Shown here in pieces: positions 49,642 through 52,813 of a DNA stretch of 64,000 bases. The first letter of the stretch is position 1, and every line of letters begins with the position of its first letter. A program made the position numbers and the translations under genes. The DNA comes from Corynebacterium jeikeium. Its GTDB lineage: Bacteria; Actinomycetota; Actinomycetes; Mycobacteriales; Mycobacteriaceae. The notes beneath the pieces were generated by a model. It had not been told where the DNA came from. It saw only the letters and a program-made list of their open reading frames with translations, and ran no database searches. The stretch covers positions 62,001-126,000 of the forward strand of contig NZ_JFCH01000054.1 in NCBI RefSeq assembly GCF_000738175.1. Direction: 5' to 3'.

Positions 49642-50532
49642 CTAGAACAGGCGCACCGAGTGATCAACGGGGCCATGGCCTTTACCGACTAGCAAACGGT
49701 CGGCATTGGCGATGGCCTCGTTGAGCCATTTAGTAGACCAATCCAGCGCATCCTCCAGTGAATCACCCGCGCCCAGCCGAGTGGCCAGCGCAGAAGACAA
49801 AGAACACCCCGTGCCGTGGGTGTTTTTTGTTTCCACGCGCGGGGAGCTGACCTTATGCGTCTTCCCGGCAGGGGATACTGCAATGTTGCCGGCCTCCGGC
49901 CCGGCCAGGTGACCCAGCTTCACGATGACGGTGGTGTCGGTTTCCTGCGCCCACTTTGCGGCAACCTCCACGGCCTCCTGCTCGCTGGTGGCCAGTTCGG
50001 TCTTGGTCAGGAGTGAGAGTTCGGGGAGGTTCGGCGTCACAACTGAAGAAGCGGCAGCGAAGTCCCGCAGTGCGTCCTCGGCGTCCGCAGTGAGCAGCCG
50101 GTCGCCCGAGGAAGCCACCGCCACCGGATCCAGCACCGTCGTGACCTGGTGGTTCTGCAGGTAATCGCGGATGGTCTGGATGGTCTCCGTGTCGCCGAGC
50201 ATGCCGATCTTCACGGCATCGACGGTGACGTCGTCGAAGACAGAGTCCAGCTGCGCGCGAAGGAAATCCAGCGGGGGAGTGTGGATCTCGCGCACGCCCT
50301 GCGTGTTCTGCGCGACCAGGGCGGTGATGACGGACATGCCGTAGCCGCCCGCCGCCATGAAGGACTTCAGGTCTGCCTGCGCGCCCGCTCCGCCTGTTGG
50401 GTCGGTGCCGGCGATGGACAGGACGCGCGGGCGGAGGGGGCTGGGTTCGCTGGGGGTTGGGCTGCTAGAGCTGGCTGGATTGGCCGAGCCACTGGGGTTG
50501 CTGGGGTTGATGTCGGAGCTGTTGTTGGTCAT
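49642..50532 (-). CDS. thiD: Hydroxymethylpyrimidine/phosphomethylpyrimidine kinase
   Basis: About 296 residues from the ATG at 50532 (MTNNSSDINPSNPSG). The first ~45 residues are Ser/Pro/Asn-rich and look disordered. The ribokinase-fold core starts RVLSIAGTDPTGGAGAQADLK and has the anion-hole motif NTHGTGCSLSSALAT with the catalytic Asp-equivalent region. Phosphorylates HMP and HMP-P for thiamine synthesis. No other thi gene is nearby. Confidence 0.93.
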   Translation of the reverse strand: MTNNSSDINPSNPSGSANPASSSSPTPSEPSPLRPRVLSIAGTDPTGGAGAQADLKSFMAAGGYGMSVITALVAQNTQGVREIHTPPLDFLRAQLDSVFDDVTVDAVKIGMLGDTETIQTIRDYLQNHQVTTVLDPVAVASSGDRLLTADAEDALRDFAAASSVVTPNLPELSLLTKTELATSEQEAVEVAAKWAQETDTTVIVKLGHLAGPEAGNIAVSPAGKTHKVSSPRVETKNTHGTGCSLSSALATRLGAGDSLEDALDWSTKWLNEAIANADRLLVGKGHGPVDHSVRLF

Positions 50533-50590
50533 GCCCCTCATTATGGCGCATTTGCTTGCGCCCACCGCCTCGGTTGGCTTTACGCAGCGC

Positions 50591-50718
50591 TAAATGTCGT
50601 TAGAACGAGAAAGTGTCACATTTGCTACCTGTGTAGCCCTGACGGCAACGCTCTGACCAGCAGTTTTGCTAAAACGAAAAACGTTTCCGATAACGTATTC
50701 TCGTTCTAACGACATTTA
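50591..50718. repeat. 128-bp element with perfect 21-bp terminal inverted repeats (MITE-like)
   Basis: The left end 50591-50611 starts TAAATGTCGTTAGAACG; the right end 50698-50718 is its exact reverse complement. The 86 bases between hold no gene. Each arm carries the near-palindrome CGTTAGAACG. No clear target-site duplication is visible. Located between thiD and the acyl-CoA synthetase gene. Confidence 0.85.
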
Positions 50719-50803
50719 AGCCTTTTTGGATGGGCTGCGGGGTGGCTACAGGCCTAGGGGCGAGGCCGTGACTGGTGGGCGGTCACGGCTGTGGCCGGGA
50801 GGG

Positions 50804-52567
50804 CTAAGGCTGTGGCAGCTCGCGCGGGACCACCTTGCCCACCGCGTTGCGGGGGAGCTTGTCCAGGTAGACGAAGTAGCGCGGCACACTGTGGCGAGCC
50901 AGGTGAGCCTTGACCTCCGTCTTTACCTTTTCCTCGAACTCCGCCTTCTCTTCGTCGGTCAGCTCGGCCGCACTCTTGCCCTCCGGCACAACCCACGTGC
51001 ACAGTGCCTGGCCAAACTCTGGGTCATCCACACCACGCACGGCGGACTCGGCGACGCAGTCCATGGAGTTAACCACGTCCTCGGTCTCCTGCGGGAAGAC
51101 ATTCTCGCCACCGGAGACGATCATGTCGTCACTACGGCCAGAGATGAACAGCAGGCCTTCGTCGTTGTAGTAGCCCAGGTCTCCGGTGGCGACCATGCCG
51201 TCGATGATCTCCTTGTCGGAGCCGGGGCGGGTGTAGCCCTCGAACAGCATGTCATTCTTCACGAAGATGCGTCCGATTTCGCCATTCGGCAGCTCCTTGC
51301 CGTTATCGTCCAGAACCTTCAGCGTCGTTGCCATCGGCGGCTTACCTGCCGTGTTGATGTGTTTGCGCAGCTCCTCCGGGGTGGCGATGGAGGCCCAGCT
51401 GACCTCCGTCGAACCGTAGAGGTTGTAAAGCACGTCGCCGAACTTCTCCTGCGTCTCGCGCACTACCTTTGGTGGCAGCGCCTCGCCGGAGGTGGCGATG
51501 ATCTTCGTGCCAGAGTTGAAGTTCTCCGGCACGACCTCCAGCATGCGGCGCAGCATCGTCGGCACCATTGCGATGGTGTAGGGGCGGTTCTTCTCGATCA
51601 GCTTCACGGCAGCTTCGGGGGAGAAGCGGCGCTGCATGATCATGGTGTTGCGCAGCGCGAGCGCCAGCTGGATCTGCGCGAAGCCCCAGGTGTGGAACAT
51701 CGGCGCGGAGAGGAATGATGGCCGGTGGTGGCGCATCGGGATGCGGCTCATGATGGAGGAGGCCGGCATGTACGTCTTCGGCTCTGGTCGGCGCGCGCCC
51801 TTCGGGGTGCCGGTGGTTCCGGAGGTCAGGATGATGGTGCGCCCCTGACGCGGGCGGGCGGGGATGGAGAGGTTCTCTGGGGTGGTGCTCAGCACCTCGT
51901 GCAGAGAGGGCCAGTCTTCGCTGCGGGTGGCGTAGTCGCCACTGTCGATCGCATCCCGAACATTGGAGGCCTTCTTTAGGGCTTCCTCTGCGTCGCGGGT
52001 GAGTCCCAGCGTGTCGCCGTTCTCCCAGGCCACGACGACTGGGCAGGCGTCGAAGTCCTTCGGCAGAAGCGGCAGGAACTCCTCGTCGATGAACAGGATG
52101 TCGATCTTTTGTTCCTGCAGCACGGCTTGGGTCTGCTTTGCTGACGCCCCAGTGTTGAATAGCACAATGTCCGTACCCAACCGACCGTGTGCGCACAGGG
52201 TGAGGATGAATCCGCGGTGGTTGCGGCATAGCACGCCGATGCGGTCACGCTCGCGGATGCCGGTGCGGAAGAGGGCTTGCGCCAGGGCGGTGGACTGCTC
52301 GTGCAGTTCTTGGTAGGTCATCGAGCCGGCGTCGTCGATGATGGCCGTGTGGTACGGGTCGCGCGCGGCGCCGATGGCTAGCAGGCCGGCGGGCAGGAAG
52401 CTCCACTGGATGATTCCCTTGAGGGCCTTGCCAGCTGCGACGGGGCCCATAGACCCCAGGACGCCCGATTTGAACAGGGGCAGTGTGCCTTTAAGAAGTG
52501 TGCCTGCGGTCCCGATCTGGTCAGTAAGGGAGGGCTTGGGCAACTGGGCGGCTGCTGCTGCGTTCAT
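50804..52567 (-). CDS. Acyl-CoA synthetase (AMP-binding, FadD family)
   Basis: About 587 residues from the ATG at 52567 (MNAAAAAQLPKPS), chosen because AAGGAGAG lies ten bases upstream; a 27-residue longer frame runs into repeats. ANL superfamily motifs: TIILTSGTTGTPKGARRPEP, the YGSTEVSWAS segment, ISGRSDDMIVSGGENVFPQE and the C-terminal lysine motif PRNAVGKVVPRELPQ. Activates a fatty acid to its CoA or adenylate. Fits a lipophilic organism; chain length not deducible. Confidence 0.9.
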   Translation of the reverse strand: MNAAAAAQLPKPSLTDQIGTAGTLLKGTLPLFKSGVLGSMGPVAAGKALKGIIQWSFLPAGLLAIGAARDPYHTAIIDDAGSMTYQELHEQSTALAQALFRTGIRERDRIGVLCRNHRGFILTLCAHGRLGTDIVLFNTGASAKQTQAVLQEQKIDILFIDEEFLPLLPKDFDACPVVVAWENGDTLGLTRDAEEALKKASNVRDAIDSGDYATRSEDWPSLHEVLSTTPENLSIPARPRQGRTIILTSGTTGTPKGARRPEPKTYMPASSIMSRIPMRHHRPSFLSAPMFHTWGFAQIQLALALRNTMIMQRRFSPEAAVKLIEKNRPYTIAMVPTMLRRMLEVVPENFNSGTKIIATSGEALPPKVVRETQEKFGDVLYNLYGSTEVSWASIATPEELRKHINTAGKPPMATTLKVLDDNGKELPNGEIGRIFVKNDMLFEGYTRPGSDKEIIDGMVATGDLGYYNDEGLLFISGRSDDMIVSGGENVFPQETEDVVNSMDCVAESAVRGVDDPEFGQALCTWVVPEGKSAAELTDEEKAEFEEKVKTEVKAHLARHSVPRYFVYLDKLPRNAVGKVVPRELPQP

Positions 52568-52813
52568 TTCTGGGTGACTCTCCTTGGGTTGGTCGCTCTG
52601 GGTCGGTTTCTCTGGGTTGGTCTTCTGGGTTAGTTTTCTGGGGTGCAATCCCTGGGATGGTTCCTTTGGGAAGGGATCCCTTGTTTACCACTGCCCCGAG
52701 TTTTAGTGGTGCACATCACTTTAATGTTTCTGTATTAAAAAGTTCTCGGTTTGAAAAAATAACTATGAAGGGACAGGTTGTGGGGGAGCTGGGGAATAGG
52801 GGTTTAAAGGGCG

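Follow-up and report, generated by a model that had tools for sequence, protein, structure and literature searches.

The element at the thiD locus

The spacer between two genes in a 64,000-nucleotide stretch of Corynebacterium jeikeium DNA (the window) holds a 128-bp element with inverted ends, and the question raised by this locus is what kind of element it is. A reading of the sequence alone had taken it for a miniature transposable element or a pair of recombinase or regulator sites. A check of positions 50400-50900 bore out the perfect terminal repeats described in that reading, which are 21 nt long, 100% complementary, and separated by 86 nt. A script applied to the whole window found a single 21-bp inverted repeat at a gap of at most 300 bp. 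Inverted repeats of 14 bp and 16 bp numbered nine and six in the window and zero in base-composition shuffles (five tries each), and a perfect 21-bp inverted repeat is far beyond chance. The spacer does lie between two genes on the same strand, both minus: the element is located just upstream of a thiD-like gene (ORF 49642-50565, Pfam Phos_pyr_kin) and downstream of a gene for an AMP-binding, acyl-CoA-synthetase-like enzyme (ORF 50804-52648). The features of the element are listed in Table 1.

Table 1. Coordinates and properties of the element and its parts in the window
Feature	Position	Strand	Description
Whole type-A unit	50594..50715	+	122 bp (50591-50718 including the AAA/TTT outer bases); family layout from an alignment of 47 copies
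Left arm, type A	50591..50611	+	Perfect inverted repeat; family consensus ATGTCGYTAGAWCGRGAAT
Right arm, type A, inward facing	50698..50718	-	Perfect inverted repeat; 47-copy alignment; like arm labels in 165 of 173 units
Variable stretch, unit positions 25-52	50618..50645	+	Constant length, weak conservation (0.22 bits/position over 26-52)
Core with CTCTGACC[TA]GC	50646..50668	+	1.18 bits/position; found with arm types A-D; sets the direction of the unit
Partly conserved right half	50669..50691	+	A/T-rich tracts ahead of the right arm; 0.67 bits/position over 76-97

Family size and unit anatomy

The statement that the element occurs once was correct for the window, where no further arm was found elsewhere in the 64 kb at up to three mismatches, and incorrect for the genome. 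The 17-bp arm had 28 sites at up to two mismatches in the genome of the window (G000), a reversed-pattern control had none, and these further copies ruled out a unique element. At least 34 related units were counted in G000, and six genomes of the C. jeikeium group together yielded at least 173 in the parts that were examined. This set, reduced from 198 loose candidates to 177 by a filter and then to the 173 with both arms at 70% or more, is a lower bound for the examined stretches, and further units with type-B arms lie outside them (for example G000:C26:274-393).

Each unit is about 122 bp long and consists of two inward-facing arms, 104 bp apart, around a shared core. The dimensions are nearly invariant: 165 of the 173 units are 122 bp long, seven are 123 bp, and one is 121 bp, while the inner arm distance in 174 pairs was 104 bp in 166, 105 bp in seven, and 103 bp in one. 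Besides type A, three arm types were found with the same core, each following ATGTCG: type B (GAAAAGTTGCAAAAC), type C (YTAAAGTGGGAAT and relatives), and type D, which is A-like (CTGAATCGGGAAT). Every arm type starts with ATG, which in the window opens a frame at 50594-50656. The two arms of a unit carried the same label in 165 of the 173 units (A/A 92, B/B 65, C/C 8), and the rest were D/A (5) or C/B (3); the combination A/B was absent.

Conservation was concentrated in the arms, with 1.55 and 1.71 bits/position in 34 non-redundant type-A copies, from which the values of the other parts in Table 1 were also derived. Identity between G000 and G099 over 32 orthologous units was 97.0% in the arms, 92.0% in the core, 89.7% in the right half, 83.9% in the variable stretch, and 87.9% in the flanks, as calculated from same-type pairs of equal length at 60% identity or more, so that indels inside units are invisible, and with gapped flank columns omitted. 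In each of the four species comparisons, identity was higher in arms and core, and lower in the variable stretch, than in the flanks; the right half failed to exceed the flanks in two of these.

The two arms of a unit are not always exact complements. Among 37 copies, the arms disagreed at position 7 in 24 and at position 12 in 12, and position 15 leaned to agreement (G/G in 29, A/A in 3, and A/G or G/A in 5). Differences at single positions such as 7 and 12 argue against a hairpin, and the arm pair is read as two copies of a putative binding site and not as partners in base pairing.

Distribution among genomes

The family appears to be confined to a narrow lineage. The exact 14-bp arm was present in G000 alone among 61 genomes, and DNA similarity at E < 1e-4 was found in six of 242 genomes of the genus (G000, G099, G131, G146, G204, and G206), which a sequence-only model confirmed as the element-bearing genomes. 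Some match at E up to 1 occurred in 99 of the 242, and these matches are taken as mostly chance. A two-arm scan of about 85,000 species, performed with type-A arms only, returned 44 stretches, which came from C. jeikeium Cj37130, Corynebacterium sp. HMSC08A12, ACRPH, and ACRQK, together with one contig of Brevibacterium sp. HMSC07C04. A generic pattern of ends and core with any arm matched 13 of the 242 genus genomes: the six, one genome (G132) with a real unit, and six with single matches that are taken as chance since their arms do not fit. No match was found in plasmids searched with one A and one B unit, in phages searched with one A unit only, or in IMG/VR viral contigs searched with a single two-arm pattern per type (A and B).

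The unit of G132 (L247:5545-5666) and that of the Brevibacterium contig (L094:557-678) are single type-A units with near-identical flanks, and both precede a gene that matches a periplasmic-binding protein in L169. This shared neighborhood points to probable horizontal transfer of that stretch among skin actinobacteria. Within the group, end-pattern matches over the whole genome numbered only 8 in G204 (ACRQK) and 21-38 in the other five, so the system would be dispensable or in the course of being lost there, and the family seems to be decaying in that genome. At the G204 loci L262, L263, and L266, units are missing at several positions, and one at L263 has altered arms.

No description of the family was found in the literature, where an earlier mention in the K411 genome paper or in other subscription papers is possible. 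C. jeikeium K411 is mentioned for its CRISPR motif pairs in the accessible part of PMC5217627, and Corynebacterium is not named in the accessible part of PMC3733652. On this distribution and anatomy, the element of the window is probably one copy of a lineage-restricted family of composite putative protein-binding sites.

Orthologous loci and genomic setting

The units were assigned to 30 orthologous groups, a figure that is approximate because the first group merges several positions; 28 of the 30 were present in at least two genomes. Units of type A or D and of type B were both present in some species in 19 of the 30 groups, and a mixed neighboring pair occurred in 18. All 46 pairs of neighboring units within 700 bp were co-oriented, and 42 of these were of mixed type.

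At the thiD spacer, G000 and G099 carry an A unit, G131 and G206 a B unit, and G146 a B plus an A unit; G204 has none. Neither a single copy nor identical presence in all relatives, which the sequence-only reading had associated with a fixed regulatory structure, was therefore found, as copies exist and this spacer differs between genomes. The variable stretches of the A and B units at the thiD locus shared 39-61% identity, where the background is 26% (s.d. 9), and by this likeness the A and B units there seem to share an ancestor; either the two arms switched type jointly or a tandem pair formed and was later reduced. A common origin of A and B units at every locus was considered and rejected, variable-stretch identity being 0.291 within loci (n = 210) versus 0.252 between them (n = 5208).

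With one vote per group and genes called by a codon-usage script, the setting of the units was convergent in 15, tandem in 14, and divergent in one of the 30 groups; for element-free spacers longer than 150 bp in nearby DNA, the counts were 5 convergent, 28 tandem, and 22 divergent of 55. No functional theme was detected among 60 neighbor proteins (all 57 distinct listed neighbors and three others). Many of these are housekeeping proteins, including L9, L17, S17, SecE, isocitrate dehydrogenase, fumarase, and GreA, and the set also includes one TetR-type regulator and one Mutator transposase. The gene for this Mutator-family transposase (L051:6923-8167) adjoins A/B units of G000:C22. The G131 sequence starts with dnaA and dnaN, as read from translations, and its GC skew flips sign between 1.2 and 1.3 Mb (12 samples); its 25 loci lean toward the origin with a weak bias (KS p = 0.02).

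Helical phasing of arms and units

In addition to the inner pair, 151 other distances between neighboring arms were collected, and these clustered at 31, 41, 62, 72, 82-85, 93 bp and so on. When periods of 8-14 bp were tested, the best was 10.40 bp (R = 0.84, orthologous copies included); the 44 distinct distances alone gave R = 0.56, which was reached in 0 of 5000 uniform simulations, and G146 alone had a best period of 10.25 bp. A second test, on data that overlap those of the first, applied weight matrices to 93 flanks, with each orthologous group represented by a single unit of each type. R was 0.88 for 25 type-A hits and 0.94 for 16 type-B hits, values that none of 10000 simulations reached in either case; the hits beyond about 180 bp are arms of neighboring units. 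By spacing counts and weight matrices alike, paired arms in the family of the window are in fixed helical phase.

Extra arms were located at 62 bp in 11 groups, at 31 bp in eight, and at 41 bp in five. Flank identity was 0.58 (outer) for the 62-bp extra arms and 0.27 for those at 41 bp; some of the former arose by local duplication of a 62-bp stretch that included flank, and a habit of duplication could therefore account for part of the spacing. Three tandem type-A units at 228-bp steps, with extra arms spaced 62 bp, were observed in G131 (L174:1528-2105).

Spacers between A and B units, with those of 300 bp or more left out, followed the same rule less strictly. Their 27 distinct values gave R = 0.51 (p = 0.0006), and draws of one spacer per group (17 groups) gave a median p of 0.009 and a maximum of 0.045 over 200 draws; some spacers (120 and 171 bp) are far from a whole turn. 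Differences between orthologous A-B spacers were 20, 20, 21, 23, 30, 40, 41, 41, 42, and 65 bp. Most of these ten values are close to whole turns, with a mean cosine of 0.72 (p = 0.0003), and a control of 164 differences of 3-150 bp, measured from unit to flanking match and taken out of 273 comparisons, had a mean cosine of 0.07. One A-B spacer in G000 and G206 was seen by eye to be partly filled by decayed arm-like repeats. The pattern of distances indicates a putative selection for helical phase, strong between arms and weaker between neighboring units up to about 200 bp apart.

Alternative explanations

One possible but doubtful explanation is that the units are old, non-autonomous mobile elements of the MITE kind. 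The arms would then be transposase-binding ends, the arrays and their phasing would derive from the transposition complex, and new copies would have landed beside old ones in the same direction. The units are short, have terminal inverted repeats, and are repeated in the genome, as MITEs are, and their approximately 30 dispersed positions require some spreading process. Divergent promoters are avoided, as expected for surviving insertions. Inverted ends, 5'-TGT..ACA-3' termini, and arrayed sites resemble the ends of transposons of the Tn7, Tn402, and Mu kind, in which transposase sites of about 20 bp form same-direction arrays on each side. Some B-arm sites also stand alone (G000, 5 of 36; G146, 4 of 56), and among them an imperfect, inward-facing pair was found 16 kb apart in G146 (C12:81304 and 97319). 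However, all 32 exact A-arm sites of G000 lie within the clusters, and the two lone B-arm sites among 26 in G131 are weak (two mismatches) and 2.2 Mb apart. A transposase with matching ends, which the sequence-only reading had suggested as a check, was found neither for the A arms (G000) nor for the B arms (G131), and the single transposase among the 60 neighbor proteins, of Mutator type, is at one position. No target duplication or shared direct repeat was seen by eye beside the units. As for empty sites, the thiD spacer of G204 is without a unit, and the absences in G204 look like deletions of varying size. The core is common to several arm types, the arms are conserved above the flanks, and orthologous spacers change mostly by whole turns, all of which weigh against this explanation. 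Of the earlier interpretation, a repeated element whose arms appear to behave as a pair of protein-binding sites is supported, and a miniature transposable element of the present day is not. An old mobile origin may account for the dispersal, though by itself not for the constraints on arms and spacing.

A transcribed hairpin acting in RNA stability, as a terminator, or as a REPIN-like single-strand hairpin is improbable. The arms do pair in an alignment fold, across types too, and many units lie at gene 3' ends, but arm mismatch at positions 7 and 12 is frequent and no RNA structure was predicted for the interior. No Rfam family was matched at threshold (one hit of 8.4 bits, against a gathering value of 70, is chance), and no RAYT was found in 10 genomes. 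There is equally little probability that the units are operators or promoters of a neighboring gene, here thiD. The element of the window is directly upstream of thiD, and the inner dyad of its arms, CGTTAGAACG, is operator-like; against this, only one of the 30 groups is divergent and 15 are convergent, the neighbors are without a common function, and the thiD spacer of G204 lacks a unit. A 20-codon peptide (MSLERE.../MSEKLQN...) ending at the TGA in CTCTGACC is the least credible proposal, since although the frame stops there in 31 of 34 type-A copies, with earlier stops in 3 of 34, reverse frame 1 is equally open (3 of 34) and the middle is not conserved.

Comparison with known systems

BIME/RIP elements, the REP-based mosaic elements of enterobacteria, prefer gene 3' ends. 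They have in common with the present family dispersed intergenic copies and inverted arms; binding of gyrase, IHF, or Pol I is known for BIME/RIP, and protein binding would be expected here. In the portion of PMC2817692 that is accessible, REPs are described as regularly spaced in alternating orientations and bound by protein. The family differs from BIME/RIP in the lack of a GTAG/CGTC tag (the arm consensus starts with ATGTCG), in its near-constant 122-bp length, in its several arm types with like arms within a unit, in whole-turn spacing, and in having no RAYT. REPIN/RAYT systems, as presented in the accessible part of PMC3116915, likewise comprise inverted doublets, several sequence groups per genome, and dispersed copies; here, unlike in those systems, the arms are not kept fully complementary, although the rest of the arm still pairs, and positions are common to several species. 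A RAYT (Y1_Tnp, PF01797) was found in 0 of 10 genomes, and the control matched in 5 of 14. Correia/NEMIS and other bacterial MITEs are also short, intergenic, and bounded by terminal inverted repeats, and one Correia class contains an IHF site, according to the accessible part of PMC2229807. The family differs from them in that no target duplication was seen and no donor insertion sequence was found, and in its conserved core, conserved spacing, and directional arrays.

With respect to the Tn7, Tn402, and Mu transposons, the differences are that no transposase or cargo was found, that the inner pair is short and near-invariant, and that extra arms lie outside the pair. P1-type parS sites consist of inverted arms around a central bend, with arm boxes that set specificity, and need a fixed helical phase; the likeness is in this layout of inverted arms around a core and in the helical phase. 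The family differs from parS in its approximately 30 chromosomal positions and in the absence of a plasmid match and of a group-special ParB_N paralog: one strong ParB_N hit was found in each of 14 genomes, with weak extras in G131 and G015, none was special to the group, and no ParB occurred among the 60 neighbor proteins. The ParB_N open frames of the six element-bearing genomes are longer (444-513 aa; L267, L268, L269, L274) than the main hits of the eight others (348-427 aa), an extension that was not confirmed by a gene caller. Judged by analogy, the layout resembles BIME/RIP or parS-type complexes. Because the family fails the defining test for REPINs, having no RAYT, and neither a parent transposon nor a dedicated ParB was found, it was filed as a variant of dispersed intergenic repeats.

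A putative protein-assembly site

The reading preferred here is that the unit is a stereospecific protein-assembly site, which is probable on the arrangement of its sequences. A directional core is enclosed by two inward arms of like type at a distance of ten helical turns, with further arms on either side near whole turns, and neighboring units of the other type obey the whole-turn rule more loosely. Each arm would be bound by a sequence-specific protein, and the core would be bent or occupied by a second factor, so that the proteins could meet on one face of the DNA in a looped or wrapped complex. Proteins of different specificity would read types A and B, and the A and B complexes may touch each other. 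The copies would have spread in an ancestor by some process, and many positions would have been retained since. An assembly of this kind, made of arm-binding proteins, would explain the like arms, their inward direction, the near-fixed length, the whole-turn spacing, and the conservation. Weighing against it are the scarcity of end-pattern matches in G204, the neighbor proteins with no functional theme, the local duplications behind some extra arms, the looser phase of the A-B spacers, the different best period in G146, the lean to agreement at arm position 15, the identity of the right half and variable stretch relative to the flanks, the weak origin bias in G131, and the absence of a group-special ParB_N paralog.

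Most of the sites are located behind or between genes, and hardly any between divergent promoters, which would favor a role in chromosome organization or topology rather than the control of a single neighboring gene; such a role is offered as a guess, and a tentative one. More speculative still is a chromosome-wide anchoring system of two specificities, in which A and B units at about 30 positions would seed same-face assemblies in mutual contact, like a dispersed centromere or nucleoid organizer peculiar to the C. jeikeium group.

Hairpins or dead transposons are the usual explanation for repeats dispersed between genes; the helical phase in this family points to a higher-order DNA-protein complex. 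With two arm specificities side by side and the arms of each unit alike, the family may allow a binding specificity and its site to be traced together in evolution.
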